A stretch of DNA of 64,000 nt from Streptomyces sp. ML-6 (GTDB taxonomy: Bacteria; Actinomycetota; Actinomycetes; Streptomycetales; Streptomycetaceae), in NCBI RefSeq assembly GCF_030116705.1, contig NZ_JAOTIK010000002.1, positions 868,001-932,000 of the forward strand, written 5' to 3'. A program made the position numbers and the translations under genes. This document shows positions 1,541 to 44,777 of the stretch, piece by piece; positions within the stretch are counted from its first letter, which is position 1; each line of letters starts with the position of its first letter. Under the pieces are notes generated by a model. It was given only the letters and a program-made list of their open reading frames with translations, had not been told where the DNA came from and ran no database searches.

Positions 1541-2947
1541 GTGGCCGATACCTCAAGACGCGCCCCCTCCGGCACGACGCCCCCGCGCTCTCACCGGAAC
1601 GCGCCCCTCACGCCCGAGGGGCGCAAGCGGCTGATCGAACGATGCCGCACCCGTCCGATCGCACACGTAGCCGCAGAGACGGGTATCTCCCGAGCCACCG
1701 CGTCGAAGTGGGTAAACCGGTACAAGGAGTTCGGCGAGCTCGGTCTCATCGACCGATCGTCCGCTCCGACACGGCAGCCGACCGCGACGCCCGGATGCTT
1801 GGTGAAGCGGACCGAATCGATGCGGCGCGAGCACAAGTGGTCAGCATCCCGCATCGCGTTCGAGCTGCATCAAGACGGAACCCCGGTCAGTCGCCGCACC
1901 ATCACACGGCTGCTCGCGCAGCTCGGCTTGAACCGGCGGAAATTCATCGACCCGAATGGCGAGACGAACCGGGAGCCACAGAAGATCATCGCCGAGCGTC
2001 CCGGCCACATGGTGCATATTGACGTGAAGAAGACCGGCCGCATCCCGGACGGCAGCGGCTGGCGTGTGCATGGGAAGAGCAGCATCGAAGCCAAAGCCGT
2101 AGCGAGAACAAAGAAGCGCGGTGCGAAGACCGGCTACGTCTTCCTCCACTCCGCGATCGACGGCTACTCCAGGCTCGCCTGCACTGAAGCGTTGTCTGAC
2201 GAGAAGGCTGTAACAGCAGTCGCCTTCCTCGACCGGGCGCGAGCATGGTTTGCAGCTCACGGCATCACCCGGCTCGAGCGAATCGTGACCGACAACGGCT
2301 CCTGCTACCGCGCGGCCGTCTTCGCCGAGGCAATGGGCGAGAGCCGGCACCAGCGGATCACCCCGTGCACGCCACGACACAACGGGAAGACCGAGCGCTA
2401 CAACCGCATCCTTGCCGAGGAGTTCCTCTACGCCTGCACCTGGCACACAGAAGGGGAACGCACTGCCGCACTCGAGGTCTGGAACCAGCACTACAACTAT
2501 CGCCGACCCCACGGCGCACACGAAGGCCAACCGCCGGCCTCGGCGACGCCATCACGCGTCAACAACGTCCTGACCTCGTACATGTGCCCCGGGCAGGGGT
2601 GGTCGTACGCGCCGGGCGGAGTTGGTCGTACATCCCGGGCAGGGTTGGCCGTACGCCCCCGGCGGGACCGGCCCCGCCGGGGTGTGTGCGGCTACCTCGG
2701 CGGGGGCAGGGCCTCGAAGGCGCCCATCAGCAGCGGGTCCAGGGTGCCGGAGCGGCGGATCGCGCGGGGCGGGCGGGCCTGGAGGGTGGGACCAACGGCC
2801 CGCAGCAGGTTCAGGTACGCCGCCTGGGTCTCGGCCGCCGGGTCGATGCCGAGCTCCTCGGCGAGCACCTCGCGCAACTGCTGGTACGCGCGCAGGGCGT
2901 CCGCCCGGTTGCCGGCCGACGCGTACGCCGCCATCTGGCAGCGGTAG
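1541..2947 (+). CDS. IS481-family transposase with 3' read-through
   Basis: DDE-type integrase. It has an N-terminal helix-turn-helix region (residues about 20-75, LTPEGRKRLIERC then AAETGISRATASKW), then an rve-like catalytic core with D161 (HIDVKK), D251 (VTDNGS) and E285 (GKTERYN), giving IS481-like D-E spacing. The homologous part should end near 2582, after a VNNVLTSY-type terminus. There is no stop there, and the frame runs on through the 23-bp tandem repeats and antisense to the SARP gene to 2947. No terminal inverted repeats were found: the start abuts the DoxX stop, and the right end seems deleted or rearranged. Probably a dead or immobile element remnant. The catalytic triad is intact, but the long tail makes activity doubtful. 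Confidence 0.75.
   Translation: MADTSRRAPSGTTPPRSHRNAPLTPEGRKRLIERCRTRPIAHVAAETGISRATASKWVNRYKEFGELGLIDRSSAPTRQPTATPGCLVKRTESMRREHKWSASRIAFELHQDGTPVSRRTITRLLAQLGLNRRKFIDPNGETNREPQKIIAERPGHMVHIDVKKTGRIPDGSGWRVHGKSSIEAKAVARTKKRGAKTGYVFLHSAIDGYSRLACTEALSDEKAVTAVAFLDRARAWFAAHGITRLERIVTDNGSCYRAAVFAEAMGESRHQRITPCTPRHNGKTERYNRILAEEFLYACTWHTEGERTAALEVWNQHYNYRRPHGAHEGQPPASATPSRVNNVLTSYMCPGQGWSYAPGGVGRTSRAGLAVRPRRDRPRRGVCGYLGGGRASKAPISSGSRVPERRIARGGRAWRVGPTARSRFRYAAWVSAAGSMPSSSASTSRNCWYARRASARLPADAYAAIWQR
2586..2654. repeat. Three 23-bp tandem repeats after the transposase
   Basis: Units at 2586-2608, 2609-2631 and 2632-2654 share the pattern CCGGGC-G-G-TGG-CGTAC and differ at a few positions. They lie immediately after the expected C-terminus of the IS481-type transposase and are read through by its frame. 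They may be derived from the right end of the element or be a separate local duplication. Confidence 0.8.
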
Positions 2948-3543
2948 GCGCTCTCCCGGAACGGCGCACGGCGCACCGCCTCGTCCGCGTACCGCAGCCC
3001 GTGGTGCTCGTCTCCCAGGGCCGAGGCGGAGAGGCTCGCCAACTCCAGTGCGTTCAGGCGTAGTTCATCCACCCGTTCCCGGACGCTGCTCACCCACTCG
3101 CCGTCGTGCGCCGGCAGGAACGAGCCGCGGAGATTGGAGACCGCCCCGGCGGCGAGCTGCTGCGCCACGGGATAGGCGTGCTCCGCGAACGCCTCCTGCG
3201 CTTCGGTGACCGCGGCGTCGGCCGCTTCCAGGTCGACCGCCGCGTCGTCGGGCAGTCGCAGCAGATAGCGCCCGCTGTGGGCGACCAGCGGTGTCTCACC
3301 CGGCCTCTGGCGCGGATCGCTGACATAGGCGCGCACCCGGCTGACGACGCTGCGCAGGGCCGACGCCCAGGTGTCGGGCAGTCCTTCCGGCCACACGGTG
3401 TCGGCGAGCTGGTCGCGGCCGGTCCCCGCGGAGCGTTCCAGGACCAGCCGGGCGAAGGCCACCTGGGCCTGGGCGCTCGACAGGTGCTGGGGCGGGGCTC
3501 CGTCGTGCTCCACGGTGACGAGTCCTACGAGTCTGATCAGCAA
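2692..3543 (-). CDS. SARP-family (AfsR/DnrI-type) pathway regulator
   Basis: A 283-residue regulator of SARP build: an N-terminal OmpR-like winged helix (about residues 1-95, with SALRSVVSRVRAYV in the recognition region) and a bacterial transcriptional activation domain (about 100-255, including LRLNALELASLSASALG and AYQQLREVLAEELGIDP). There are no NB-ARC or TPR extensions, so it is a short SARP. The TTG start at 3543 is supported by GGGGAG seven bases upstream. It is transcribed divergently from the biosynthetic operon that begins at 3905, and by family precedent would activate it. The 3' end overlaps the read-through tail of the transposase. Confidence 0.88.
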   Translation of the reverse strand: MLIRLVGLVTVEHDGAPPQHLSSAQAQVAFARLVLERSAGTGRDQLADTVWPEGLPDTWASALRSVVSRVRAYVSDPRQRPGETPLVAHSGRYLLRLPDDAAVDLEAADAAVTEAQEAFAEHAYPVAQQLAAGAVSNLRGSFLPAHDGEWVSSVRERVDELRLNALELASLSASALGDEHHGLRYADEAVRRAPFRESAYRCQMAAYASAGNRADALRAYQQLREVLAEELGIDPAAETQAAYLNLLRAVGPTLQARPPRAIRRSGTLDPLLMGAFEALPPPR

Positions 3544-3904
3544 ATCTGGCTCCCCAAGACATCGGCGGCTCCCCCTGGCCGAAAGCGCGTGGGTGCGGCA
3601 CGGAATGGATCGTGGACCATTTCGGGGACGATCACAGGATCGCCACTCCTTTTACATTCTCTTTCCCGTGCATTCGACCGTACCGGCGGTCGGTCGACCT
3701 GTTCAACCGTGGCCGTAAACATACCGGGGCGAATAGTCGGAACCGTTCCTTCCGGTATTTGGCGACTCGTCGTTCGACCTTTTCGCGAAGGAAATTCGAG
3801 CCGTCCGTGCCGTATTGCGCGCGTCTTGCGGCCGACCTCTAGAAATGACGTCGCGTTGGGACAAGGCCAAGAAGCCGAACGAAGCCGTGGAAGAGGAGAC
3901 GCAC
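3544..3904. promoter_or_regulatory. Divergent promoter region, SARP gene / cluster 1 operon
   Basis: This is a gap of about 360 bp between divergent starts and is visibly richer in A/T than its surroundings. It holds three copies of a seven-base element (T/G)TCGACC at 3673-3679, 3693-3699 and 3773-3779. SARPs bind direct heptamer repeats, but the 20- and 80-bp spacing does not match the usual 11- or 22-bp spacing, so the assignment is tentative. GAGGAG lies just before the GTG at 3905. No other gene is seen in the gap. Confidence 0.4.
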
Positions 3905-5125
3905 GTGAACGCACCCGGAGCATGGGAACGCCTCGAACCGAAACTGGCGGCCACCCGGCGGCGGGTGCAGGCGCTCGAATCGGAACCCGAACGCCGCAAC
4001 AGTTTCGTCGCCTACACCGTCGAACGCGACAGCGCCTACGCCGATCTCGACGGACGCCGGCTGCTGATGATGTCCGGATACAGTTACCTCGGACTCGCCG
4101 GGGACGAACGCGTCGTCGCCGCCGCCAAGGCCGCCGTCGACCGCTACGGGACCGGAAACCACGGCGTGCGCGCGCTGGCCGGATCCATTCCACTGCACGA
4201 GGAACTGGAGGCCGAGGTCGCCCGGTTCGCCGAGCGCGAGACGGCCATGGTCTTCGGCTCCGGCTATGCGGCCAACGTCGGCACCGTCGGCGGCCTCGTG
4301 GGCGCGGGCGACACCGTCTTCATCGACAAGTACGACCACGCCTCGATCGTCGACGGCTGCCGCCTCTCCGGCGCCACCGTCACCCGCTTCCGTCACAACG
4401 ACGTCGACCACCTCGACCGCAGGCTGCGGGCCGCCGGACCCGACGGCGTACGCCTCGTCGTCGTCGACAGCGTCTACTCCATGGACGGCGACATCGCCCC
4501 GCTGCCCGAACTGCGCAAGGTGTGCGACGAACACAACGCCCTCCTGATGGTCGACGAGGCACACGCGCTCGGCGTCATCGGCGCCACCGGACGCGGCATC
4601 GAGGAACACTTCGACCGGCGTGTCGAGGTCGACATCAAACTCGGCACGCTCTCCAAGGCGATCCCCTCCATGGGCGGCTGGGTCGCGGGCCCCGAGCGGC
4701 TGATCGGCCATCTGCGGTACGCGGCGCGGCCGTTCCTGTTCTCCGCCGCCCTCGGCCCCGCCCAGGCCGCCGCCGCCCTGGAATCACTGCGCATCCTGCA
4801 ACGCGAACCGGAACGGGTCGCGCACATCCAGCACCAGTCCGAACGGCTGCGCGCCCTCATCAACGCCGAGGGACTGCGCACCCAGGACAGCGAGACCGCG
4901 GTACTGCCGCTGATCGCCGGCTCGGACGAGGCGGCGTACGACCTCGCCACCGCCTGCCGCCGCAACGGCGTCATCGGACTGCCCGTGGTCACCCCGGCCG
5001 TCCCCAACGACCTCGCCCGGCTCCGGATCGCCGTCACGGCCCGCCACACGGAGGCCGACATCGACTTCGCCGCCGAGGTCTTCCTCAAGTCCGCCCGAGA
5101 GTGCGGCATCCTCCCCGCCCGATAG
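3905..5125 (+). CDS. Alpha-oxoamine synthase (AONS/KBL family), PLP-dependent
   Basis: First gene of cluster 1. Family enzymes condense an amino acid with an acyl thioester, with decarboxylation. Seen here: GYSYLGLAGD near the N-terminus, TGNHGVRALAG, the PLP-contacting DEAHALGV, and GTLSKA with Schiff-base lysine K251. At 406 residues it has single-domain size, without the ACP domains fused to the prodiginine homologue. The GTG at 3905 is chosen because GAGGAG lies seven bases upstream; an in-frame ATG at 3845 would add 20 unconserved residues. The KAS gene follows 11 bp later. With an ACP and ligase in the same operon, the acyl donor is probably an ACP-bound intermediate; the amino acid partner is unknown. 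Confidence 0.88.
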   Translation: MNAPGAWERLEPKLAATRRRVQALESEPERRNSFVAYTVERDSAYADLDGRRLLMMSGYSYLGLAGDERVVAAAKAAVDRYGTGNHGVRALAGSIPLHEELEAEVARFAERETAMVFGSGYAANVGTVGGLVGAGDTVFIDKYDHASIVDGCRLSGATVTRFRHNDVDHLDRRLRAAGPDGVRLVVVDSVYSMDGDIAPLPELRKVCDEHNALLMVDEAHALGVIGATGRGIEEHFDRRVEVDIKLGTLSKAIPSMGGWVAGPERLIGHLRYAARPFLFSAALGPAQAAAALESLRILQREPERVAHIQHQSERLRALINAEGLRTQDSETAVLPLIAGSDEAAYDLATACRRNGVIGLPVVTPAVPNDLARLRIAVTARHTEADIDFAAEVFLKSARECGILPAR

Positions 5126-5136
5126 GACGTGCCCCC

Positions 5137-6372
5137 ATGGCGACCTCCACCGGACCAGCGGTCGTGATCACCGGCATCGGCGTGGTCACCCCCGCCGGCT
5201 GCACCCCCGACGAGCTGTGGGCCGGACTGCGCGCCGGCCGGTCCACCGCCGCCGAGCTCACCCACCTCGACCTGACCCGCCACCGGGTGCGCATCGGCTG
5301 CCGGGTCCGCGGCCTCGACACCATGGACCTGGTGTCCGCGAAGGACGCCCGCCGGATGGACCCGTTCGCGCTGTACGGGACGACCGCCGCACTGGCGGCC
5401 CACCGGGACGCCGGCTCCCCGGCCCCGGACCCGGGCCGCACCGCGGTCGTCGTCGGCAACGCGGTCGGCGGACGGACCACCAGCGACCGGGAGTCCGCGC
5501 TGTTCACCGCGGACGGCCCGCACCGGGTCAACCCGCTGATGCCCCTGATGACCATGCCCAACGCGGCCGCCGCGCAGATCGCCATGCGACTGGGCTGGAC
5601 GGGGCCCGCCACCACCATCGCCACCACCTGCGCCAGCGGCGCCGACGCCATCGGCCAGGCGGCGCTGCTGCTGCGGACCCACCGGGCCGACATGGTCGTC
5701 GCGGGCGGCTGCGAATCCACCCTGACCCCGGTCACCCTGGCCGGCTTCGGCAACCTGAACGCCGTCTCGCTGCGCAACGACGAGCCGGACCGGGCCTCGC
5801 GGCCGTTCGACGCCGACCGCGACGGGTTCGTCATGGGGGAGGGGGCCGGCTTCGTCGTCCTGGAACGGGCCGACGACGCCCGGGCGCGCGGCGCGCGCGC
5901 CTACGCCGAGGTCGCCGGGTACGGCGCCACCTCCGACGCCCACCACCTGTCGATGCCGCTGCCGGACGGCGCGGGCGCGGCCGGTGCGATGGCCGCCGCC
6001 CTCGCCGACGCGGGCCTCGCCCCGTCCGACATCGCCCATGTCAACGCCCACGGCACGTCGACCCCGCACAACGACCGGGCCGAGGCCGCCGCCCTGACGA
6101 AGGTGTTCGGCACCGCCGGCCCCCCGGTCACCGCCCCCAAGGGCGTCATCGGCCATCTGATCGGCGCCGCGGGCGCCGTCGAAACGATCGCGGCCGTGCT
6201 GGCGATGCGGGCCCGCGAGGTGCCGCCCACCGCCAACCACGAACGCCTCGAACCAGGAATGGACATCGACGTGGTCCACGAGAAGCCCCGCCCCATCGCC
6301 TCGGGCCCCGCCCTGTCGAACTCCTTCGGCTTCGGCGGACACAACGCCTCGCTGGTGGTGGTGCCGGCATGA
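5137..6372 (+). CDS. Beta-ketoacyl-ACP synthase (KAS I/II, FabF-like)
   Basis: A 411-residue thiolase-fold condensing enzyme. The Cys-His-His triad is complete: C165 in TTCASGADA, H305 in NAHGTSTPHND and H340 in GHLIGAAGA, and the C-terminal NSFGFGGHN motif is present, so it should carry out real Claisen condensation rather than act as a chain-length factor. It would extend an ACP-bound starter with malonyl-ACP inside the pathway. The stop overlaps the next start (ATGA), showing translational coupling. No malonyltransferase is encoded in the operon, so primary-metabolism FabD would be needed. Confidence 0.9.
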   Translation: MATSTGPAVVITGIGVVTPAGCTPDELWAGLRAGRSTAAELTHLDLTRHRVRIGCRVRGLDTMDLVSAKDARRMDPFALYGTTAALAAHRDAGSPAPDPGRTAVVVGNAVGGRTTSDRESALFTADGPHRVNPLMPLMTMPNAAAAQIAMRLGWTGPATTIATTCASGADAIGQAALLLRTHRADMVVAGGCESTLTPVTLAGFGNLNAVSLRNDEPDRASRPFDADRDGFVMGEGAGFVVLERADDARARGARAYAEVAGYGATSDAHHLSMPLPDGAGAAGAMAAALADAGLAPSDIAHVNAHGTSTPHNDRAEAAALTKVFGTAGPPVTAPKGVIGHLIGAAGAVETIAAVLAMRAREVPPTANHERLEPGMDIDVVHEKPRPIASGPALSNSFGFGGHNASLVVVPA

Positions 6373-7232
6373 CGACGACGGCCGAGACCCCGCACACCAC
6401 CGAGACCTCGAGCACCACCGAACACACCGTCACCACCGAGGAGATCACCGCCTACCGGGCCGCCGCCCGCGCCGGACTGCCCCCGGCCGCGAACGACCAG
6501 GCGTCGCCCGTGCACGCCTTCGTGCTCGCCCACGCGGAGGCCGACCGCACCGTGCGGTCGCTGATCGCGGGACAGGAGGCATCGGTCGTCCACCTCGCAC
6601 AGGACATCCGGCTGCGGCGGCCGGTACGGCCCGGCGAGAGCGTCGGCATCACGCTCGACGTGCTCGGCGCCCGGCGCGAACCGCGCGGCACCCGGGTCGC
6701 CGTACGCACCCGGCTCACCGGCCACGACGGCACCGAATTCGCCGAACTGGTCACCGCCGCCCTCCTCGTGGGCGCGAACGGCATCGAACCGTTCGGCGAG
6801 ATCCCCCAGGGGAGCGCCCCGGCCCCCGCCGGCCCGCCCGGCGAACCGGCCACCGCCACCCACGAGCCGACCCCGGACGGCATCCGCGCCTACGCCCACG
6901 CCTCCGGCGACCTCAACCCCATCCACCTCGACCCCGCCGCCGCCCGCGCCGCCGGCTTCGAGAACGTCATCGCCCACGGCATGAGCGTCGTCGCCCTGGT
7001 CTGCGAGGAGATCGCCGACCGGTACGCGCACGGCGACATCGCCCGCATCCGCGCCGTCAGCGGCCGGTTCTCCGCCCCCGTCCTCCCGGACGAACCGCTC
7101 GACATCACCCTCCAGCCCGACGCCGGCCACACCGTCGTGCGGTTCACCTGCCGCACCGCCGGAGGAATCGCGGTCAAGGCCGGCCGGGCCGAGCTCGCCC
7201 CCGCACCGGAAGGAGACGGCCCCCATGACTGA
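6369..7232 (+). CDS. MaoC-like double-hotdog hydratase/dehydratase
   Basis: A 287-residue protein with a Thr-rich N-terminal tail of about 25 residues, a degenerate N-terminal hotdog half (about 30-140), and a C-terminal MaoC domain (about 160-280) bearing the hydratase-2 signature ASGDLNPIHLD followed by GMSVVALV. Family members add or remove water on enoyl/hydroxyacyl thioesters. It overlaps the KAS gene by 4 bp and the ligase gene by 8 bp. No ketoreductase is encoded in the operon, so its hydroxyacyl substrate must come from elsewhere or it does non-canonical chemistry. Proline-rich linker near 145-155. Confidence 0.8.
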   Translation: MTTTAETPHTTETSSTTEHTVTTEEITAYRAAARAGLPPAANDQASPVHAFVLAHAEADRTVRSLIAGQEASVVHLAQDIRLRRPVRPGESVGITLDVLGARREPRGTRVAVRTRLTGHDGTEFAELVTAALLVGANGIEPFGEIPQGSAPAPAGPPGEPATATHEPTPDGIRAYAHASGDLNPIHLDPAAARAAGFENVIAHGMSVVALVCEEIADRYAHGDIARIRAVSGRFSAPVLPDEPLDITLQPDAGHTVVRFTCRTAGGIAVKAGRAELAPAPEGDGPHD

Positions 7233-8742
7233 CACACCCCCGAGGCCCCCGGCCGGCGAACTCCTCCCCGGTTTCCTCACCCACGTCCGCGAGCGCCCCG
7301 ACGCACCCGCACTCCTCCAGCACGACGAGGAGACGACGTACCGCACGCTGCACGACATGGCCGGCCACGAACGCGAACGCCTCGCCCGCCTCTCCCTCGC
7401 CCCCGGCGAACCCGTCGGCGTCCTCGCCCCCAAGTCCCCCGGCACCATCGCCCTCGTCCTGGCCTGCCTGCTCACCGGACGGCCCTTCCTGCTGCCCTCC
7501 CCGGCGCTCGCCGACACCCAGCTCGCCGAACTGTTCGCCCGGGCCGGCTGCCGGCACGTCCTCGCCCCCCGCGGCGAACCGGAACGCGCCCTGCCGACGG
7601 TCACCGCCGAACCGCTCCCGCCACCCGCCGGCACCACCTTCATGCTCACCACCTCCGGCTCCACCGGACTGCCCAAGATCGTCCCGCTGGGCCGCGACGC
7701 CGTGGACCGGTTCACCGCCTGGGCCGGCCCGGCCTTCGGCATCGGCCCCGGCACCACCGTCCTCAACCACGCCCCGCTCAACTTCGACCTGTGCCTGTTC
7801 GACGTCTGGACGACCCTCGCGCACGGCGGCCGGGTCGTCCTCGTCGACCCGGCGGTCGCCGCCGACGGCCGACGCGTCCTGGACCTGGTGGCCCGGCACG
7901 AGGCGGACGTCGTCCAGGCCGTGCCGATGCTGTACGGGCTGCTCGCCGACGCCGCCCGCCGCACCGGGACCGCCCTGCCCTCCGTACGGCACGTCCTGTT
8001 CACCGGCGACGCCGTGCCCGACCGCACCTTCACCGAGCTGCCCCGGCTCTTCCCGAACGCGCGGCTGTACAACGTCTACGGCTGCACCGAGACCAACGAC
8101 AGCTTCGTCCACGAGGTCGACACCGGCACCACCGGGCTCCCGCCCGTCCCCCTCGGCCTCCCGCTGCCCGGCGTCCGGGCCCTCGTCCTCGACGACCGCG
8201 GCACCCCCGTCGAGGGCCCCGGCTCCGGCGAACTGTACGTCTCCACCCCCTTCCAGGCACCCGGCTACCTCGACCCCACCCGCCACCGCGGCAAGTTCAC
8301 CGGCCATCCGCTCGGCCTCGACGACCGCCCATGGTTCCGCACCGGCGACCTGGTGCGCCGCGACACCGACGGCCGGCTCCACCTCACCGGCCGCGCCGAC
8401 TTCCAGGTCAAGGTGCGCGGCATCGCCGTCAACACGGCCGAGATCGAACAGGTGCTGCTGCGCCACCCCGCCGTGCTCGAAGCGGGTGTCGTGGCCCGGC
8501 CCGACCCGCTCACCGGCCGCACCCTCGTCGCCGGGGTCCGCCGCGCCCCCGGCACCGGGCTCAACAGCCTCCAGCTCAAGGAGCACTGCGCCCGCGGCCT
8601 GCCCGGGGCGGCCGTCCCCACCGTCCTGCGGATCACCGACGACCCGCTCCCCAAGACCTCCACGGGAAAGGTCGACCGCAACGCGCTCGACCGCCCCGCC
8701 GAGCGGCGCCCAGCAGTCACGAACGAAGGAAGGACGTCATGA
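7225..8742 (+). CDS. Amino acid adenylation (ANL) ligase, possibly prolyl-type
   Basis: A stand-alone 505-residue ANL enzyme that would activate a carboxylic acid as its AMP ester and load it onto the adjacent ACP. Core motifs are visible: TTSGSTGLPK (A3, about residue 142), NFDLCLFDVW (A4), NVYGCTET (A5), FRTGDL (A7), and A10 STGKVDRNAL with catalytic K482. The A4 segment places Asp-Leu at the first two substrate-pocket positions, as in NRPS domains that bind an alpha-amino group. Together with the free ACP and the acyl-CoA dehydrogenase it resembles the proline-to-pyrrole cassette of prodiginine and pyoluteorin pathways. That parallel is inferred from context; the substrate is not proven. 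Confidence 0.85.
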   Translation: MTDTPPRPPAGELLPGFLTHVRERPDAPALLQHDEETTYRTLHDMAGHERERLARLSLAPGEPVGVLAPKSPGTIALVLACLLTGRPFLLPSPALADTQLAELFARAGCRHVLAPRGEPERALPTVTAEPLPPPAGTTFMLTTSGSTGLPKIVPLGRDAVDRFTAWAGPAFGIGPGTTVLNHAPLNFDLCLFDVWTTLAHGGRVVLVDPAVAADGRRVLDLVARHEADVVQAVPMLYGLLADAARRTGTALPSVRHVLFTGDAVPDRTFTELPRLFPNARLYNVYGCTETNDSFVHEVDTGTTGLPPVPLGLPLPGVRALVLDDRGTPVEGPGSGELYVSTPFQAPGYLDPTRHRGKFTGHPLGLDDRPWFRTGDLVRRDTDGRLHLTGRADFQVKVRGIAVNTAEIEQVLLRHPAVLEAGVVARPDPLTGRTLVAGVRRAPGTGLNSLQLKEHCARGLPGAAVPTVLRITDDPLPKTSTGKVDRNALDRPAERRPAVTNEGRTS

Positions 8743-8996
8743 GTCACACCACCACCATCAAGAGGTTCGTCATCGACGAGTTCCTGCCCGACCTCGGCAC
8801 CCACGAGCTCGCCGACGACCACGACCTCCTCTCGGACGGCGTCATCGACAGCCTCGGCGTGCTGAAACTGATCGCCTGGGTCGAGGACCACTTCGAACTC
8901 GCCGTCGGCGACGCCGACCTCGACCCCAACAATTTCCGCAGCGTGGCGGCGATCGACGCGTTCATCGCGGACTCCCGCCAGGGGGTGACCGGCTAG
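8739..8996 (+). CDS. Acyl/peptidyl carrier protein
   Basis: An 85-residue carrier protein with the phosphopantetheine site GVIDSLGVLKL; the modified serine is S38. It overlaps the ligase gene by 4 bp (ATGA), which argues that the ligase loads this carrier, and it would present the substrate to the acyl-CoA dehydrogenase, KAS and oxoamine synthase of the same operon. Length and acidity are normal for a free-standing ACP/PCP. It is the only carrier protein seen in cluster 1. Confidence 0.93.
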   Translation: MSHTTTIKRFVIDEFLPDLGTHELADDHDLLSDGVIDSLGVLKLIAWVEDHFELAVGDADLDPNNFRSVAAIDAFIADSRQGVTG

Positions 8997-8998
8997 CC

Positions 8999-10054
8999 AT
9001 GCACGACGCGCTCACCGGGCTGCTCGCACGGCGTCCGGTGGCCGGGCGCGAGACCTGGCGGTCACTGTGGGACCGGCTCGGCGACGGCTCGCTGGACAAG
9101 GAGCAGGCCGTCGCCCTGCTGGCCTCACTGACCACCCGGCTCCCCGGCCCCGAGACCCTGCACGCCCTGCGGGAATCCCTCCTCGAACGGCGACCCGCCG
9201 TCCCCGCCGGCCACTGGCACGGCACCGTCAACGTCGTCGGCACCGGCGGCGGCCCCGCCACCTTCAACATCTCCACGGCCTCCGCGTTCGTCGCGGCGGC
9301 CATGGGCGTACGGGTCGTCAAGTCCGGTTCGCGCGCCTACACCTCCGGCCTCGGCTCGGTCGACCTGCTCGAACGCCTCGGCGTCCGGCCGACCGCCTCG
9401 TACGAACAGACCGAACGGGCCCTGGAACAGTACGGGATCGCCTTCACCGGACCCTTCGTCTACCCGGTCGAACTGGCCCGGCTGGCCCGCACCATCGCCC
9501 CGCTCGGCATGAAACCCTTCGGCCGCTTCCTCAACGCGCTCGGCCCCTTCCTCGCGGACCTGCCCACCACCGCCCAGGTCACCGGCGTCTCGCACACCAT
9601 GCCCCACACCGCGCTGCGCGCCCTGGCGGACCGGGTGACGGACCGGCGGATCTGGCTGACCACCAACCCCGAGGGGGCCGACGAACTCCTGCCCTTCACC
9701 GACAACACCATCCACACCAACGACCCCACCGACCGGGAGATCCTGCTGGAGGCGGGTCAACTGACTGCCCCGGACGGGTCGTTCGACGACCTGCGCCCCG
9801 TCGCGCCCACCGCCGCCGCCGACCACTTCCTGGCCGTGCTCTGCGGCGACACCACCGCCACCACCACCCGGACCCTCTGCCTCAACGCCGCCGCGCTCGC
9901 GGTGGCGAGCGGCCACAGCACCGGCTGGCGTCCCGCCCTCGCGGCCGCCGAACGCGCCGTCGCCGACGGCGCGGCCCGCGAACTGGCCGAACGGATGCGG
10001 GCCCGGACCACCCCCGCAGGGGCAGGAGCCGGAACGGGGGCACGCCGTGGCTGA
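8999..10054 (+). CDS. Anthranilate phosphoribosyltransferase-like protein (TrpD fold) with altered substrate site
   Basis: A 351-residue TrpD-fold protein. The PRPP-binding part is kept: VGTGGG and FNISTASAFVAAA at about residues 78-100, and SVDLLERLG. The anthranilate-binding signature is not: where TrpD has KHGNR this protein has K108-S-G-S111-R112, and the segment that should carry the second anthranilate-contact arginine reads IAPLGMKP. It starts 3 bp after the ACP stop and overlaps the TrpA-like gene by 8 bp. It should still transfer phosphoribose, but perhaps to a different amine. The fold is confident; the substrate is unknown. It is unlikely to be the housekeeping TrpD because of these losses and its location. 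Confidence 0.82.
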   Translation: MHDALTGLLARRPVAGRETWRSLWDRLGDGSLDKEQAVALLASLTTRLPGPETLHALRESLLERRPAVPAGHWHGTVNVVGTGGGPATFNISTASAFVAAAMGVRVVKSGSRAYTSGLGSVDLLERLGVRPTASYEQTERALEQYGIAFTGPFVYPVELARLARTIAPLGMKPFGRFLNALGPFLADLPTTAQVTGVSHTMPHTALRALADRVTDRRIWLTTNPEGADELLPFTDNTIHTNDPTDREILLEAGQLTAPDGSFDDLRPVAPTAAADHFLAVLCGDTTATTTRTLCLNAAALAVASGHSTGWRPALAAAERAVADGAARELAERMRARTTPAGAGAGTGARRG

Positions 10055-10883
10055 ATTCTTCGTACGCGACCACCACAGCACCGGCCCCGGCCTCGCCCTG
10101 TTCCTCAACGCCGGCGACCCGCCCCTCGACGTCCTGGAGGACCTCGTCCTCATGCTCGACGAGGAGGGCGTCGACTGTCTGGAACTCGCCGTCCCCTTCC
10201 CCGACTCCGTCACCGACGGACCGGTCATCCGGCGCTCCGCACGCCGCGCCCTGGACCGGGGCACCGACCTCGGAGGCGTACTGGAGTTCATCGCCCGCGT
10301 CCGCCCCCGGCTGCACCGGCTGCGCATCGCCCTGCTCACCGACTGGAGCCACTCCCTCAAACACCGGGACCTCGCGGACGCCACCCGCGACATCGCCGCG
10401 AGCGGCGCGGACGGACTCCTCGTCCACGCCCTGCCGCCCCGGCTGGGCACCGCGTACCACGCGGCGGCCCGCGCCGCCGGACTGCCCGTCGTGACCACCT
10501 GCTACCAGAACAGCTCCGCGGCGACCATGGACCGGGCCGCGGCCCACGCCTCCGCCTACCTCTACCTCGTGGCCCACTACGGACGCAGCGGCACCGCCCC
10601 CGCTGCGGGACACACCGCGCTGGCCGGCACCGTCGCCGCGCTCCGGGCCCGTACAGCGTCCCCGATAGCCGTCGGCTTCGGGGTCAGGACCCGCGACGAC
10701 GTGGCGGCCGTCCACGCCTGCGGAGCCGATGCCGTGATCATCGGCTCCGCCGGTGTCGAGCGGATCGAGCAAGCCCTCGACGGGGGCGGCGATCCGGTCA
10801 CCGGCTTCCGCGCCTTCGTCCGGTCCGTCCAGCCCGTGCGGCAGGCCGTCGACGCCACCGCACCCGACAGAAACAGGAGTTGA
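10047..10883 (+). CDS. Tryptophan synthase alpha-like lyase (TrpA/BX1-type)
   Basis: A 278-residue TIM-barrel homologue of TrpA, which splits indole-3-glycerol phosphate into indole and glyceraldehyde-3-phosphate. The two catalytic carboxylates are present with the right spacing: E46 in ELAVPFPD and D57 in TDGP, 11 residues apart as Glu49/Asp60 are in the E. coli enzyme. The phosphate-binding end is recognisable (GFGVRTRDDV, IIGSAGV). The usual PDLP motif is replaced by HALP. No trpB lies nearby, so the split product would be released free, as by plant BX1. GTG start inside the TrpD-like gene. Confidence 0.82.
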   Translation: MAEFFVRDHHSTGPGLALFLNAGDPPLDVLEDLVLMLDEEGVDCLELAVPFPDSVTDGPVIRRSARRALDRGTDLGGVLEFIARVRPRLHRLRIALLTDWSHSLKHRDLADATRDIAASGADGLLVHALPPRLGTAYHAAARAAGLPVVTTCYQNSSAATMDRAAAHASAYLYLVAHYGRSGTAPAAGHTALAGTVAALRARTASPIAVGFGVRTRDDVAAVHACGADAVIIGSAGVERIEQALDGGGDPVTGFRAFVRSVQPVRQAVDATAPDRNRS

Positions 10884-10886
10884 GCA

Positions 10887-11261
10887 ATGATCATTCGTGA
10901 CATCGAGGACGTGAAGACCGTCGAGTGGGGCAACGGTCTGAGCCGCCGCTTCCTGCTGGCATCGGACGGCGTCGGCTACTCCCTCACGGACACGGTCGTC
11001 CGGGCCGGCACCAAGTCCCGCCTGGAGTACCGCAACCACCTCGAATCCTGCTACTGCATCGCGGGCTCCGGCGAGGTGGTCGAACTCGACGGCACCTCGC
11101 ACCCGATCACCCCCGGTGTCCTGTACGCGCTCGACAAGCACGACGCCCACTACCTGGTGGCGAGCCCGCACGAGGACCTCCGGCTCGTCTGCGTCTTCAG
11201 CCCGGCGCTCCAGGGCGACGAGGTGCACAGCCTCGACGCGCACGTGTCCTCCGCGTACTGA
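10887..11261 (+). CDS. Ectoine synthase-like cupin (EctC family)
   Basis: A 124-residue single-domain cupin matching EctC in length and across its whole sequence: MIIRDIEDV at the start, FLLASDGVGYS, SRLEYRNHLESCYCI, the GSGEVVELDG turn, and LDKHDAHYL with the conserved cupin histidine. EctC closes N-gamma-acetyl-diaminobutyrate into the tetrahydropyrimidine ectoine by intramolecular dehydration. No ectA, ectB or ectD is adjacent, so this copy is more likely a cyclodehydratase for the pathway product than part of osmolyte synthesis. The ATG lies 3 bp after the TrpA-like stop, with AGGAGT upstream. Confidence 0.85.
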   Translation: MIIRDIEDVKTVEWGNGLSRRFLLASDGVGYSLTDTVVRAGTKSRLEYRNHLESCYCIAGSGEVVELDGTSHPITPGVLYALDKHDAHYLVASPHEDLRLVCVFSPALQGDEVHSLDAHVSSAY

Positions 11262-11288
11262 AGAAAGCACCTATGAAGGCGGTTCCCA

Positions 11289-12434
11289 GTGATCCGATGG
11301 AACACCGACCAGGTCGACCTGCGGGAAGGCCTGGCACGGTGGGGTGAGGCGCTCAGCGCCGACCACCTGGAACAGGACGAGCGCGCCGCGTTCTCCTGGG
11401 ACAAGTGGAAGCTCGTGCAGAAGACGGGCATCCTCGCCCTGCCCTTCGAGGAGCGGTACGGCGGCCTCGGCCAGTCGCTCCTCACCACCATGTACGTGCT
11501 CGAAGGACTCGGCGAGCACTGCCGCGACGCCGGACTGAGCTTCTCGGTGACCACCACCCTGGCCAGCACCGGCGTCCCCCTGGAGAAGTTCGGCACCCCC
11601 GAACAGAAGGAGAGGTACCTGCCCCTGATCTGCTCCGGCGAGATGATCGGCGCCCACGCCATCACCGAGGCGGAAGGCGGCTCCGACGCGATGGCGATGA
11701 CCACGCGCGCGGAGCGGGACGGCGATCACTACGTCCTGACCGGCGGAAAGACCTTCGTCAGCAACGGCCCCGTCGCCGACGTGTTCGTGGTGTACGCCCG
11801 GACCCGTCCCGACGGCGGGGCGCTCGGGGTCACCGCGTTCCTGGTGGACCGCGCCACCCCGGGCCTGGCGGTCGGCGAACCGGTCAAGAAGATGGGTCTG
11901 CGCACCTCGCCGCTGAGCGAGTTGTACTTCGACGGGTGCCGGGTGCCCCGGGACCGGGTCCTGGGCCGGGTGGGGGGCGGATTCATCGTCCTCGACCACG
12001 TGATGAAGCGGGAGATCCTGTTCTCCTTCATCGTCAACGCCGGCGAGATGCGACACCGCCTGGAACGCATCGTGGAGTACGCGAAGACCCGCAAGTCCTT
12101 CGGGCAGCCGATCGGTTCGTACCAGTCGATCGCCAACAAGATCGTCGACACCAAGATCGGCCTGGAGACGGCACGGAAATGGCTGTACGACACCGCGGAA
12201 CGGCTCGTCGCCGGCGAGAACGTCACCACGGACCTGGCCATCGCCAAGCTGCTCACCAGTGAATCCAATCTGGCCAGCAGCATCACCGCCGTCCAGATCT
12301 TCGGAGGACACGGCTACATGACCGAGTACGGGCTCGAACAGGACGTCCGCAACGCGGTGGGCGGCACGATCTACTCGGGCACCAACGAGATCCAGTACAA
12401 CCGGATCGCCTCGATGCTGGGCCTGGGCAAATGA
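11289..12434 (+). CDS. Acyl-CoA dehydrogenase family flavoenzyme, probably acting on an ACP-bound substrate
   Basis: A 381-residue ACAD with all three domains: helical N-terminal domain, FAD/substrate barrel (AHAITEAEGGSDA, VSNGPVADVFVV), and C-terminal helices (AVQIFGGHGYMTEYG, GTIYSGTNEIQ). In the last motif the Glu that serves as base in short/medium-chain enzymes is replaced by Ser. A glutamate at E242 (VMKREIL) lies on the helix that supplies the base in isovaleryl-CoA dehydrogenase-type and prolyl-PCP oxidases. That fits an alpha,beta-oxidation of an aminoacyl-ACP, for example prolyl to pyrrolyl. GTG start; the stop overlaps the TrpF-like start (ATGA). Confidence 0.83.
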   Translation: MIRWNTDQVDLREGLARWGEALSADHLEQDERAAFSWDKWKLVQKTGILALPFEERYGGLGQSLLTTMYVLEGLGEHCRDAGLSFSVTTTLASTGVPLEKFGTPEQKERYLPLICSGEMIGAHAITEAEGGSDAMAMTTRAERDGDHYVLTGGKTFVSNGPVADVFVVYARTRPDGGALGVTAFLVDRATPGLAVGEPVKKMGLRTSPLSELYFDGCRVPRDRVLGRVGGGFIVLDHVMKREILFSFIVNAGEMRHRLERIVEYAKTRKSFGQPIGSYQSIANKIVDTKIGLETARKWLYDTAERLVAGENVTTDLAIAKLLTSESNLASSITAVQIFGGHGYMTEYGLEQDVRNAVGGTIYSGTNEIQYNRIASMLGLGK

Positions 12435-13147
12435 CCCGGGCGCCCGCACCGGTGCTCAAGGTCTGCGGGGCCACGGCCCCGCAGGACATCGAGGTACTGG
12501 CGGCCGCCGGTGCCGACCGTGTCGGACTCTGGCACGGCGTACCCGGCGGCCCGGCCGATCTGCCGGAGCGCGAGCTGACCGCCCTCGCGGCGGCGGCCCG
12601 CGCCACCGGCGTACTCGAACCCGTACTGGTCACCTTCCTCGACGACCCCGATGCCCTGGCCGGTGTCGCGCGCCGCGCCGGGGTGTCCCGGCTGCAACTG
12701 CACGCCTACCAACCCCCGGCCTTCGTGAGGGCGTTGCGCGCGGCACTGCCCGACGCCGTACTGATCAAGGTCCTGCACGTGCGGGACGGCACCTGCCCGG
12801 AGCGCCCGCTGATCGGCGCGTACGAACGGGCGGGCACCGATCTGTTCCTGCTGGACGCGACGTCCGGGGACGGCCGGGTCGGCAGCACCGGGCTGCGACT
12901 GGCCGAGCCCGATGTGCTGGCCCTCGCTGAACGGTTCACGCTGCCGTTCTGGCTGGCCGGCGGCATCACCCCGCGCAGCAGGGCCGACTTCGCCGCCGTC
13001 GCGGACCATCCGCGCTTCCACGGGATCGACGTGGACACCGCGGCCCGTGCCGGGCGGGGCCGTTTCGACGCGGACGCGGTGACCGCCCTGGCCCGTGCCT
13101 GGCGGACCGCCCGGCACCCCGTCCCGCACCCGAAGGAGCACCCATGA
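12431..13147 (+). CDS. Phosphoribosylanthranilate isomerase-like protein (TrpF fold)
   Basis: A 238-residue TIM barrel with TrpF landmarks: the catalytic cysteine C12 in KVCGAT, RLQLHAY for the usual QLHG strand, the catalytic aspartate D142 in LLDATSGDGRVGSTG, LAGGI, and GIDVDTAAR for the C-terminal phosphate site. TrpF performs the Amadori rearrangement of the TrpD product. Both acid/base residues are kept, so Amadori isomerisation of an aminophosphoriboside is likely, whichever aryl or heteroaryl amine it carries. It overlaps both neighbours by 4 bp. Confidence 0.83.
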   Translation: MTRAPAPVLKVCGATAPQDIEVLAAAGADRVGLWHGVPGGPADLPERELTALAAAARATGVLEPVLVTFLDDPDALAGVARRAGVSRLQLHAYQPPAFVRALRAALPDAVLIKVLHVRDGTCPERPLIGAYERAGTDLFLLDATSGDGRVGSTGLRLAEPDVLALAERFTLPFWLAGGITPRSRADFAAVADHPRFHGIDVDTAARAGRGRFDADAVTALARAWRTARHPVPHPKEHP

Positions 13148-13836
13148 CCTCCCGCTTCATCGAGGCCCTGCTGACCGCCGAGCGCCCGCTGATCATGGAG
13201 GTGAAGCGGCGGGACGCCCACGGCATCGACCTCATCGCGGGCCGCACCCCCGCGGACATCGTCGCCGCCTACGAGGCGGCGGGCGCACCGTGCATCTCGG
13301 TGGTGACCGGTCGCTGGTTCGCGGGCACGACCGAACTGCTCAGGGACGTCGCCCGGCTCACCGAACTCCCCCTGCTCCAGAAGGACTTCATCACCCGGCG
13401 CGACCAGATCGCCGCCGCCGGGGAACTCGGCGCCTCGGCCGTCCTGCTCACCGCCGCACTGCTGCCCGCGTCGAGCATGCGCACCCTGGTCGAGACCGCG
13501 CTGCGCACCGGGCTGACCCCGTTCGTGGAGATCACCGACGAGGCGGAACTGGAGGTGGTCCCGCACGCCGGGGAATGCGTGATCGCCGTCAACAACAAGG
13601 ACATCACCGCGCGCGAGCGGGACGCCGGCGACATCGGCCGCAGCCTCGACCTGCTGCCCGCGCTGCGGGCCGCGGGCACCCCCTGCCCGGTCAGCGCCAG
13701 CGCCATCGACAGCCCGGAGAAGGCCGCCCGGCTGCTGGCCGCCGGGTACCGGGGCCTGCTGATCGGCACCGCACTGCTGCGCGCCACCGACCTGCACGCC
13801 TGGCCGACCTCCCCGCACCGCCTGCCCACGGGGTGA
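13144..13836 (+). CDS. Indole-3-glycerol phosphate synthase-like protein (TrpC fold)
   Basis: A 230-residue TIM barrel, slightly shorter than most TrpC proteins because the N-terminal helical extension is reduced. Conserved catalytic positions seen: E19 and K21 in LIMEVKR, K80 in LLQKDFI, E129 in FVEITDE, N150 in AVNNKDI, and a GLLIGTALLR phosphate loop. The usual ESG motif before the last helix reads S184-A-S-A, losing the glutamate, and the SPSKG loop after K21 is replaced by RDAHG. It would carry out the decarboxylative ring closure that makes the indole glycerol phosphate skeleton, or its analogue. Last gene of the operon. Confidence 0.82.
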   Translation: MTSRFIEALLTAERPLIMEVKRRDAHGIDLIAGRTPADIVAAYEAAGAPCISVVTGRWFAGTTELLRDVARLTELPLLQKDFITRRDQIAAAGELGASAVLLTAALLPASSMRTLVETALRTGLTPFVEITDEAELEVVPHAGECVIAVNNKDITARERDAGDIGRSLDLLPALRAAGTPCPVSASAIDSPEKAARLLAAGYRGLLIGTALLRATDLHAWPTSPHRLPTG

Positions 13837-13954
13837 GGGGGCGGAGCGGTGGTGCGCAACGGCTCGATCCGGGCCGCGACCCCCTCGGGGCCCCTCGGGA
13901 CCCGCTGGAGACCCGGCGGAGGCCCGGTGGAGTCCTCCCCGCCCCGTCCCCGCT

Positions 13955-13981
13955 CCCGGCCCGCTCGCGCGAGGGGCCGGG
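13955..13981 (+). terminator. Candidate hairpin terminator of cluster 1
   Basis: A GC-rich stem, CCCGGCCC at 13955-13962 pairing with GGGCCGGG at 13974-13981 across an 11-nt loop, about 120 bp after the last cluster 1 gene. No clear T-run follows, so it is a plausible but unproven transcript end. Confidence 0.4.
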
Positions 13982-14106
13982 GGAGGGCGCTCGAGGACCG
14001 CTCGGGAACGGGTCGAAACCACCTGGTTGTGTTCCGCGCGCCACGCCTATGCTCTCTCCGCTCGCGCGCCGAGCGATCGGCCGAAGTCCACAGTGAGGAC
14101 ACTTCG

Positions 14107-14691
14107 ATGACCGCCAGTCCGTACTCCCCCTACAGCGCTCCCGGCCCCGGTGCGCCGCTTCCGCCGCAGACACCTCCGGTCCGGCCCGGCCGGGCCGCGG
14201 GCATTCTGCTGATGGCGTCCGTCATCGCCGTCGGATTGATGGCCGGTCTGTTCTTCGCCTACGACGTGTCGGTCATGCCCGGCCTCGCCCGTACCGACGA
14301 CCGGGTGTACGCGGAGGCCATGCAGAACTTCAACGAGGTGATCGACACCAGCGGCCTGTTCGTGCTCGTCTTCCTCGGCGCGCTCGCCGTGACGGTGGCC
14401 GTCGCCGTACTCGAGTACCGCAAGGGACACCGCAAGGTCGCCCTGTGGGCGGGGGTCGCCGCCGGCCTCTACGTGGTGGCGCTGCTGGTGACGTTCTCCG
14501 TCAACATCCCCCTGAACAACGAACTCGCCGCGATCGGCAACCCGGTGAAGGCCGGTGACCTGTCGGTCGTCGACAAGTTCAAGGGGACCTGGGAGGCGAC
14601 CAACATCATGCGCACCCTGCTGTGCACCGCGGCCCTGGGCTGCCTGGCGCACAGCCTGAAGCTCCACGGCCGCGCCACTCCCGCGGTCTGA
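14107..14691 (+). CDS. DUF1772 (anthrone-oxygenase-like) membrane protein
   Basis: A 194-residue membrane protein with a Pro/Ser-rich cytoplasmic tail (1-30) and four predicted helices (about 35-55, 82-102, 112-132, 165-182). The pattern MAGLFFAYDVSVMPGL, then FNEVIDTS, then NIPLNNELA and WEATNIMRT is typical of DUF1772, which includes some anthrone oxygenases and many uncharacterised proteins. It is separated from cluster 1 by about 270 bp with a hairpin, and is followed by its own strong terminator, so it is probably monocistronic. A tailoring role for cluster 1 is possible but unsupported. Confidence 0.75.
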   Translation: MTASPYSPYSAPGPGAPLPPQTPPVRPGRAAGILLMASVIAVGLMAGLFFAYDVSVMPGLARTDDRVYAEAMQNFNEVIDTSGLFVLVFLGALAVTVAVAVLEYRKGHRKVALWAGVAAGLYVVALLVTFSVNIPLNNELAAIGNPVKAGDLSVVDKFKGTWEATNIMRTLLCTAALGCLAHSLKLHGRATPAV

Positions 14692-43502: not shown

Positions 43503-44777
43503 ATGAAATCCGAGATGCACGAGAAGTGTCCCATCCGTCTCGACGTCGATTTCTACAGAGATCCGCACTCCGTCTACCGGGCGATAAATAAAAACGGAAA
43601 CAAGCCCACCCGGGTCGTTCTCGAAACGGGTATGGCCTATCTGCCGCCGAACCTGCACGCCTGGCTGGTGACTTCCTGCGAGGACGTCGAATTCGTGCTG
43701 CGGGACCCTCGGTTCCGTAAAAGCATAGAAGAAGCCATGCCGTTGTTCGCGTCGAGCGCCCGGGACAACGGACAGGGGCAGGACCGGAGCTCGCTGCTCT
43801 ACGACAACATGGCGAACAACGACCCACCGATCCATACCGCCCTGCGCAAGCCGCTCAACAGTCACTTCACCGCGCGGGCCGTGGCGCCCAAGCGCCGGGC
43901 CATGCGGGAACTGGCCGATTCGGTCCTGGACTCCGTCGTGGGACAGGAGTCGTTCGACCTCGTCCAGGACTTCGCCTTCCCCTACTCGATCGGAGTCATC
44001 TGCGACACGCTCGGGGTTCCGCGCGAGGACCGCGAGACGTTCCACCACTGGGTACAGACGATCACCGGTGACGCGGCCCCCGAGGTGCTCCGGCGTGATG
44101 CGCAGCGGATGGTCGGCTATCTGCGCGGCCTCATCGCGCGGCGACGCGGGACGGGCACCGACGACATCCTGACGCAACTCGCCGTCTCGCTCACCGAGCC
44201 GCAGGCGGTCGCCCAGGCGTACGCGCTGCTCGCCGCCGGGTACGAGACCTCGGCGAACCTGATCGTCACGGGGCTGCTGGCGCTGGAGTCGGACCCGGAG
44301 CAGAAGGCCCGCGTCTGGCAGGACCGTTCGCTCGTGCCGACCGCCGTGGAGGAGATGCTGCGCCATCAGTCCCCCTTCAACCTGTCGCTGTACCGGTACG
44401 CCACCGAGTCGGTCGACGTGGGCGGGGTGACCATCCCGGCCGGCTCCATCGTGTTCCTGGCCTTCGCCGCGGCCAACCGCGACGAGGCGCGTTTCGAGGA
44501 CCCCGACCGCTTCACGGTCGACGAGCCGCGCCGTGAACACCTGGCCTTCGGCGGCGGCATCCACAACTGCATCGGAAAACACCTCGCGCGCCTGGAGGCG
44601 GAAGTCGCGTTCGACGCCCTTGTCCGACGCTGCCCGGAACTCTCCGTCCGCACCCCGCCCCAGGACATGGAGTGGAAGGCCAGCCCCACCTTCCGGGGAC
44701 TCAGGAACCTCGTCGTCGCCCCGGGACCCCGGCCGTCCCGCCCGGGCCCGGCAGAAGCAGCTGGAGCAGCCCGATGA
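43503..44777 (+). CDS. Cytochrome P450, first intact gene of the PKS operon
   Basis: A 424-residue P450 with I-helix LLAAGYETSANLI, K-helix EEMLRHQSPFN, and heme loop FGGGIHNCIGKHLARLEAE with axial C356. The ATG at 43503 is chosen over upstream in-frame codons, because those belong to the decayed KAS. The first 45 codons are noticeably A/T-rich (INKNGNK). The stop overlaps the KSQ-ACP start by 4 bp (ATGA), so it is coupled to the PKS. It probably oxidises the PKS/NRPS-bound or released chain, for instance at the carbon that will take sulfur; that assignment is by analogy with thiotetronate loci. Confidence 0.9.
   Translation: MKSEMHEKCPIRLDVDFYRDPHSVYRAINKNGNKPTRVVLETGMAYLPPNLHAWLVTSCEDVEFVLRDPRFRKSIEEAMPLFASSARDNGQGQDRSSLLYDNMANNDPPIHTALRKPLNSHFTARAVAPKRRAMRELADSVLDSVVGQESFDLVQDFAFPYSIGVICDTLGVPREDRETFHHWVQTITGDAAPEVLRRDAQRMVGYLRGLIARRRGTGTDDILTQLAVSLTEPQAVAQAYALLAAGYETSANLIVTGLLALESDPEQKARVWQDRSLVPTAVEEMLRHQSPFNLSLYRYATESVDVGGVTIPAGSIVFLAFAAANRDEARFEDPDRFTVDEPRREHLAFGGGIHNCIGKHLARLEAEVAFDALVRRCPELSVRTPPQDMEWKASPTFRGLRNLVVAPGPRPSRPGPAEAAGAAR

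Follow-up and report, generated by a model that had tools for sequence, protein, structure and literature searches.

Kosinostatin, the quinocycline of Micromonospora okii TP-A0468, carries a pyrrolopyrrole whose formation reportedly follows a process similar to tryptophan biosynthesis (Ma et al. 2013). In Table 5 of PMC7918784, the kstB genes are assigned to 'load nicotinic acid and convert it to a pyrrole' and the kstC genes to 'convert the pyrrole and phosphoribosyl pyrophosphate to the pyrrolopyrrole', and disruption of ksnC3, encoding a putative phosphoribosylanthranilate isomerase, is reported to abolish kosinostatin (PMC13099267). We analyzed an operon at positions 3905-13836 of a 64,000-nucleotide stretch of DNA from Streptomyces sp. 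ML-6 (contig NZ_JAOTIK010000002.1, positions 868,001 to 932,000; this whole stretch is called the window below). It encodes an adenylating enzyme, an acyl carrier protein (ACP), relatives of TrpD and TrpA, an EctC-like cupin, an acyl-CoA-dehydrogenase-type enzyme (ACAD) and relatives of TrpF and TrpC, preceded by an alpha-oxoamine synthase (AONS), a ketosynthase (KAS) and a MaoC-type enzyme.

The operon is real and conserved, and its core is of a known kind, the kosinostatin-type bicyclic-amidine module. Locus L065, in the assembly BBZF01 of the kosinostatin producer M. okii TP-A0468 (strain and BBZF accessions given in PMC8698034), agrees with the window gene for gene, order included, over the eight genes from the adenylating enzyme to the TrpC-like gene. 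In tblastn best segments, the window proteins are 54% (adenylating enzyme), 50% (ACP), 51% (TrpD), 60% (TrpA), 70% (EctC), 64% (ACAD), 52% (TrpF) and 61% (TrpC) identical to those of L065, and judged from these sequences the assignment of the window's core to this module is highly probable. The two clusters differ in what adjoins the core, as the window operon lacks the type II polyketide synthase (PKS) ketosynthase pair for an anthraquinone (none among its proteins in Pfam and NCBIfam scans, which gave a single chain-extending KAS) and has AONS, KAS, MaoC and a SARP regulator upstream instead. Our overall reading, which we hold to be slightly better than even, is of a two-part cluster, in which a kosinostatin-type core would make a bicyclic amidine and the KAS, MaoC and AONS enzymes would extend its product.

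A preliminary description of the window had listed eleven tightly packed genes beside a divergent SARP gene and noted that TrpB and TrpE are missing. We confirmed all eleven genes on the + strand, with intergenic gaps of -8 to +27 bases, and found no match to the TrpB or TrpE families among the operon proteins in the Pfam and NCBIfam scans. Its expectation of an indole-like bicycle from a TrpD-F-C-A set, coupled with ACP chemistry on an oxidized amino acid, also stood. Its statement that no pathway with this gene set had been described needs dividing: the eight-gene core is common to the kosinostatin producer, while for the AONS-KAS-MaoC cassette we found no product, and for the AONS arm and the EctC-glutamine chemistry proposed below no description, in the open-access full text searched. 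The two arms that it had treated as equal partners turned out to be unequal, as the eight genes from the adenylating enzyme to TrpC are one fixed module and AONS-KAS-MaoC is a separate, optional cassette.

Conservation and distribution of the eight-gene core

The Pfam scores of the operon's TrpA, TrpC, Glycos_transf_3, Ectoine_synth and TrpF matches are all above their cut-offs. The lowest is that of the TrpF-like protein (29 bits), the most divergent part of the operon, for which we found a family of its own comprising 406 proteins at E <= 0.001 among 7997 candidates scored (best 120 of 406 listed). Scanning genome contigs with an alignment of the window's TrpF-like protein and 24 relatives gave 73 loci, whose gene content was determined by tblastn with twelve window proteins and counted under score thresholds. 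The nearest relatives are Streptomyces loci, with a TrpF 95% identical in L003, and one of the 73 loci, from Clostridia (L075, 32% identity), is only a distant relative.

The complete core, in the order A-ACP-TrpD-TrpA-EctC-ACAD-TrpF-TrpC (A, adenylating enzyme), was found in 61 of the 73 loci and is colinear on one strand in 59 of these 61, the exceptions being L069 (reordered) and L074 (split); such clustering is not due to chance. Among the 12 incomplete cores (L009, L013, L015, L016, L021, L026, L032, L064, L066, L071, L073 and L075), five (L009, L013, L015, L016 and L066) lie on contigs shorter than 9 kb. AONS, KAS and MaoC stand together beside the core in 28 of the 73 loci, always with a complete core, five further loci have KAS and MaoC without AONS, and 27 complete cores lack both AONS and MaoC. 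The set includes loci from Nocardiopsis alkaliphila (L062) and Actinokineospora bangkokensis (L072), both named in PMC7918784 among strains carrying the kosinostatin cluster. Kosinostatin also appears as a weak antiSMASH match in PMC7375171, where an AONS is named in another cluster listing. Of 392 genomes sampled from the window's genus, 21 have a member of the TrpF-like family, the genome of the window among them, and so has one of 396 genomes sampled across the phylum (again the window's own); the family is thus uncommon and patchy.

The 9.1-Mb genome (5 contigs) holds further TrpA (267 bits), TrpC (268 bits), TrpD (two genes, 263 and 262 bits) and EctC (179 bits) genes outside the operon. 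Since these score far higher, the operon copies are extra paralogues.

Three observations concern individual members of the locus set. L021 (Actinocrispum wychmicini) has relatives of AONS, EctC, ACAD and TrpF without A, ACP, TrpD, TrpA or TrpC, in a strain that also carries two complete cores (L019 and L059). In three genomes (G129, G199 and G272), two equal-scoring TrpF-family copies lie in opposite orientation near both ends of one contig, an arrangement like that of terminal inverted repeats. Finally, the TrpF-like and TrpC-like proteins of L067 are fused in a single open reading frame (ORF) of 452 amino acids (10007-11365).

Active-site residues and the proposed route

Residue counts refer to length-filtered rows, with L002, L066 and L071 left out throughout, L049, L052, L061, L065 and L072 also left out for KAS, and an unrelated row (window 53743-55653) left out for the adenylating enzymes. 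In adenylation pocket numbering, D235, L236, Q278, D330, S331 and K517 are invariant in all 61 core enzymes, and position 301 is Thr in 57 and Ser in 4. For comparison, three adenylating enzymes beside or in clusters of RedW-type genes (the RedW-type dehydrogenase being above the RedW cut-off in one of the three genomes and below it in two) have D, L, F/L, Y, L/V, A, L/W, V, C and K at the ten positions, presumably the prolyl code. At positions 278, 301, 330 and 331 the core enzymes have Q, T/S, D and S against Y, A, V and C in these prolyl-type enzymes, so that the core pocket looks like a proline pocket turned polar. Asp235 usually holds the alpha-amino group in such enzymes, and its invariance favors an alpha-amino acid as substrate. 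The best solved relative of the ACAD is the prolyl-ACP dehydrogenase 4irn (305 bits), and its presumed base Glu is retained in 70 of 71 sequences. The PP-binding score of the carrier protein (20.5 bits, measured on a longer ORF) is slightly below its cut-off.

The EctC-like protein matches 5onn with 117 bits, solved structures having served as the only reference for this comparison. It shares with ectoine synthase and orphan EctC proteins the iron ligands Glu57, Tyr84 and His92 and most substrate or product residues (Trp21, Ser23, Arg25, Thr40, Tyr52 and Phe106), all retained in 70/70; unlike ectoine synthase, it adjoins a TrpA-like gene and an ACAD gene rather than ectA or ectB. The EctC of Halomonas elongata makes the cyclic amidine 5-amino-3,4-dihydro-2H-pyrrole-2-carboxylate (ADPC) from glutamine (PMC6344544; PMC5924519), and the role of orphan EctC proteins is called unresolved in the same two papers.

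The four Trp-like enzymes keep the families and most catalytic residues of their tryptophan-pathway counterparts. TrpA-like proteins retain the catalytic Glu49 and Asp60 (66/66), TrpF-like proteins the catalytic Cys and Asp (70/70), and TrpC-like proteins Glu51, Lys53, Lys110 and Glu159 (61/61), Asn180 (58/61) and Ser211 (56/61). What sets them apart from tryptophan biosynthesis, besides the missing TrpE and TrpB and the separate TrpA, TrpC and TrpD genes of the genome, is that the TrpC and TrpD sites are altered. Glu210 of TrpC is replaced by Ala in 60 of 61 sequences and by Pro in one, Arg182 is Lys in 59 of 61, and the window protein lacks about 35 N-terminal profile positions. In TrpD, the Asp of GTGGD and the His107 and Asn109 of KHGN are changed in 66/66, with Lys106, Gly108, Asp223 and Glu224 unchanged. 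The window's TrpD-like protein scores 152 bits to the trpD model, below its cut-off of 199, and the TrpA-like protein 140 bits to the trpA model, above its cut-off.

From these residue states and their conservation, which are direct observations, we infer the following chemistry, order of steps and substrates. The first part of the cluster (7225-13836) would make an ACP-bound bicyclic amidine. The adenylating enzyme would load L-glutamine, or ADPC, on the ACP, the EctC-like cupin would close glutamine to ADPC, and the ACAD would remove one hydrogen pair (C-alpha/C-beta) to give 5-aminopyrrole-2-carboxyl-ACP. By our own arithmetic ADPC and 5-aminopyrrole-2-carboxylate are two hydrogens apart, so one desaturation by the ACAD would aromatize ADPC, which would also pull the otherwise unfavorable cyclization. 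The TrpD-like enzyme would then place phosphoribose on the exocyclic amine, the TrpF-like enzyme would carry out the Amadori shift, and the TrpC-like enzyme would close the second ring on the electron-rich pyrrole carbon, with the CO2 kept. The carbon of an aminopyrrole is expected to be far more nucleophilic than that of aniline, which would fit the loss of the TrpC-like decarboxylation machinery. Release of glyceraldehyde 3-phosphate by the TrpA-like enzyme would leave pyrrolo[2,3-b]pyrrole-carboxyl-ACP, an acyl-ACP of seven carbons and two nitrogens. The product of the core is probably a bicyclic amidine and not an indole.

The second part (3905-7232) would extend this starter. The KAS would add a malonyl unit, MaoC would dehydrate after a borrowed ketoreduction, and the AONS would condense an amino acid with the acyl chain, an alpha-amino ketone being the released product. 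Both KAS and AONS are probably active, since the Cys-His-His of the KAS (33/33) and the catalytic Lys of the AONS (30/30) are retained; the AONS scores 389 bits to the bioF model, below its cut-off of 426. We give even weight to the glutamine/ADPC route being right or wrong, and think it somewhat more likely than not that KAS, MaoC and AONS act on the core product.

Weighing the building block and the product

Distances among seven core proteins are correlated (r 0.78-0.94, in 51 of the 61 complete loci, species history uncorrected), a sign only of genes that travel together. Several points weigh against this scheme. The operon lacks the ketoreductase needed for the MaoC step, a different acyl chain could be the substrate of AONS and KAS, catalysis by the TrpC-like enzyme is assumed, and TrpA-like enzymes are not known to act on substrates bound to an ACP. 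As to the link with kosinostatin, we strongly infer that the L065 core is kstB/kstC, the kst genes having been matched by strain rather than under their own names. In the EctC-like proteins Asn38 is replaced by Thr (68/70) or Cys (2/70). According to the residue roles given in PMC6344544, this Asn is in contact with the carboxylate of the substrate and assists its amine, so that with the replacement some departure from the ectoine synthase reaction must be expected. The EctC glutamine reaction itself is described as very inefficient and reversible, with its equilibrium towards glutamine (PMC5924519). Moreover, indole-3-glycerol phosphate synthase (IGPS) of Mycobacterium tuberculosis shows no activity on its own substrate when Ala occupies the Glu210 site (PMC10591298). 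The IGPS of Pseudomonas aeruginosa speaks for the scheme in that it can close the ring without the carboxylate, and against it in that it does so weakly, with 41,000-fold lower efficiency (PMC7681013).

The same module and product class could instead start from nicotinic acid, loaded on a peptidyl carrier protein and contracted to a pyrrole before TrpD, TrpF, TrpC and TrpA act. This is what the Table 5 assignments quoted above say, and Ma et al. 2013 is cited in PMC7918784, PMC8400222 and PMC5321127 for nicotinic acid and ribose as the kosinostatin precursors. That origin contradicts the glutamine step; should the evidence for it prove sound, our scheme would lose its upstream half and keep the annulation half. 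We rate it as less probable than the glutamine route, in view of the invariant Asp235 (61/61) and of the EctC-like cyclase, present in 70 aligned sequences, which has no evident role in such a route. In addition the second kosinostatin cluster lacks KstB7, to which the deformylation is assigned, and the authors of PMC7918784 call its involvement unlikely. A proline origin is less probable still. The prodiginine (red/pig) bipyrrole pathway uses a stand-alone adenylating enzyme, a carrier protein and a prolyl-type ACAD together with KAS and AONS, as in the window operon, and among NCBIfam models the window's ACAD scores best with RedW and PigA. On such logic proline would be activated and oxidized to pyrrole-2-carboxyl-ACP, KAS and AONS would make a prodiginine-like bipyrrole and the Trp-like enzymes a separate partner. 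The ACAD, however, stays well below both cut-offs (RedW 360 bits against 650, PigA 344 against 500), the adenylation pocket is polar where the prolyl type has Y, A, V and C, the AONS is not fused to ACPs, and EctC and TrpD/F/C/A are extra. Moreover, 61 of the 73 loci have the adenylating enzyme, ACP and ACAD genes beside the Trp-like ones, among them the 27 complete cores without AONS or MaoC.

Release of a free indole, or of an indole later joined to the AONS product, had been favored in the preliminary description. The absence of TrpB and TrpE and the conserved catalytic residues of TrpA and TrpF, with the general ones of TrpC, agree with anthranilate-type chemistry. The loss of TrpC Glu210 and of the TrpD motif residues speaks against it, as do the inactivity of the M. 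tuberculosis enzyme with Ala at this site and the structure of kosinostatin, which depends on a TrpF-like relative for its formation and contains a pyrrolopyrrole rather than an indole; we regard an indole as very improbable. The idea that the operon holds duplicates of tryptophan and ectoine genes with a role in primary metabolism has no more than family resemblance in its favor and can be practically dismissed, given the separate high-scoring TrpA, TrpC, TrpD and EctC genes, the altered active sites and the fixed clustering with the adenylating enzyme, ACP and ACAD. A released indole, a role in tryptophan supply and a bipyrrole made from proline were each considered and set aside.

Gene contexts and neighboring features

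We surveyed the surroundings of the core by gene calling and clustering of the loci, with Pfam and NCBIfam run on single representatives. In the context of the window, SARP-AONS-KAS-MaoC, the SARP relative lies upstream of the cassette on the - strand in many loci. Frequent companions in this context are an alpha/beta hydrolase (18 loci) or a set consisting of DUF6875 (16 loci), an unknown protein (17), a protein resembling pyridoxal-phosphate (PLP) decarboxylases (16) and a multicopper oxidase (16). The kosinostatin-type context has KAS pairs in L049, L052, L061 and L072, a KAS at the edge of L065, and a cyclase-like protein in L046, L052, L061, L065 and L072. Elsewhere a transglutaminase-like protein (15 loci), the UbiD family (9), a UbiX-like flavoprotein (6) and the TrpB2 family (4) recur, and a further context combines nonribosomal peptide synthetase (NRPS) condensation-adenylation proteins with an ELFV dehydrogenase (6).

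The four TrpB2 loci (L042, L044, L059 and L067) are all among the nine UbiD loci, and a 2620-aa NRPS comes after the set in L067. The TrpB2 representative scores 699 bits against a cut-off of 366 and is above both TrpB-like cut-offs; the UbiD representative is above the Pfam cut-off and below that of NCBIfam TIGR00148 (179 against 245 bits). Of the four contexts this one is the most telling for the mechanism: UbiD and UbiX would decarboxylate a heteroaryl acid, to which TrpB2 would then add serine. Their presence is expected if the core makes an indole analogue still bearing its carboxyl group, and in these four loci the core with UbiD and TrpB2 is a candidate route to a tryptophan analogue.

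A wider proposal, which we advance tentatively and rate somewhat below even, is that actinobacteria share a transferable eight-gene 'aza-indole' module, which would turn glutamine and phosphoribosyl pyrophosphate into pyrrolo[2,3-b]pyrrole-carboxyl-ACP by means of an orphan EctC that cyclizes glutamine on the carrier and an IGPS-like enzyme that no longer decarboxylates. Hosts would plug in a type II PKS (kosinostatin), an NRPS, KAS-MaoC-AONS (the window) or UbiD with TrpB2 to give a tryptophan analogue, and the window's class would be unreported bicyclic-amidine amino ketones. If true, this would provide a group of orphan EctC proteins with a function, show four tryptophan-pathway enzymes rebuilt together for another ring, offer a testable alternative to the nicotinic-acid origin of the kosinostatin pyrrolopyrrole, and mark at least four gene-cluster contexts, that of the window included, as likely sources of bicyclic amidines.

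Table 1. Genes of the operon and its immediate neighbors, in window coordinates
Feature	Positions	Strand	Evidence
SARP-family regulator	2692..3543	-	PF03704 BTAD 92 bits; divergent from operon
AONS-type PLP enzyme (alpha-oxoamine synthase)	3905..5125	+	Aminotran_1_2 201 bits
KAS II-type ketosynthase	5137..6372	+	FabF models 466 and 464 bits
MaoC-type dehydratase/hydratase, 287 aa	6369..7232	+	PF01575 79 bits
Discrete adenylating enzyme, proposed substrate glutamine or ADPC	7225..8742	+	AMP-binding 180 bits
Stand-alone carrier protein (ACP)	8739..8996	+	ACP models; PP-binding 20.5 bits
TrpD-like phosphoribosyltransferase	8999..10054	+	Glycos_transf_3 116 bits
TrpA-like retro-aldolase	10047..10883	+	Trp_syntA 151 bits
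EctC-like cupin, proposed glutamine cyclase	10887..11261	+	Ectoine_synth 134 bits
ACAD, prolyl-carrier dehydrogenase kind	11289..12434	+	4irn 305 bits
TrpF-like isomerase	12431..13147	+	PRAI 29 bits
TrpC-like annulating enzyme, putative	13144..13836	+	IGPS 131 bits
DUF1772 (anthrone-oxygenase-like) membrane protein	14212..14691	+	PF08592 53 bits on longer ORF 13849-14691

The AONS gene has an alternative in-frame ATG start at 3845. The DUF1772 protein is possibly part of the cluster, with relatives near the core in 23 of the 73 loci. The PLP-decarboxylase-like protein and the multicopper oxidase recur near the core in 16 loci, L007, L008 and L011 among them, and in nearly every case DUF6875 and a protein of about 200 aa without a Pfam match accompany them. 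On the side of the SARP gene away from the operon, an IS481-type transposase-like ORF (rve_3, HTH_32; window 1541-2947) overlaps its 3' end. A separate PKS/NRPS cluster at window 43503-55653 encodes P450, KS-ACP, KS-AT-DH-KR-ACP-C (2290 aa) and A-PCP proteins.

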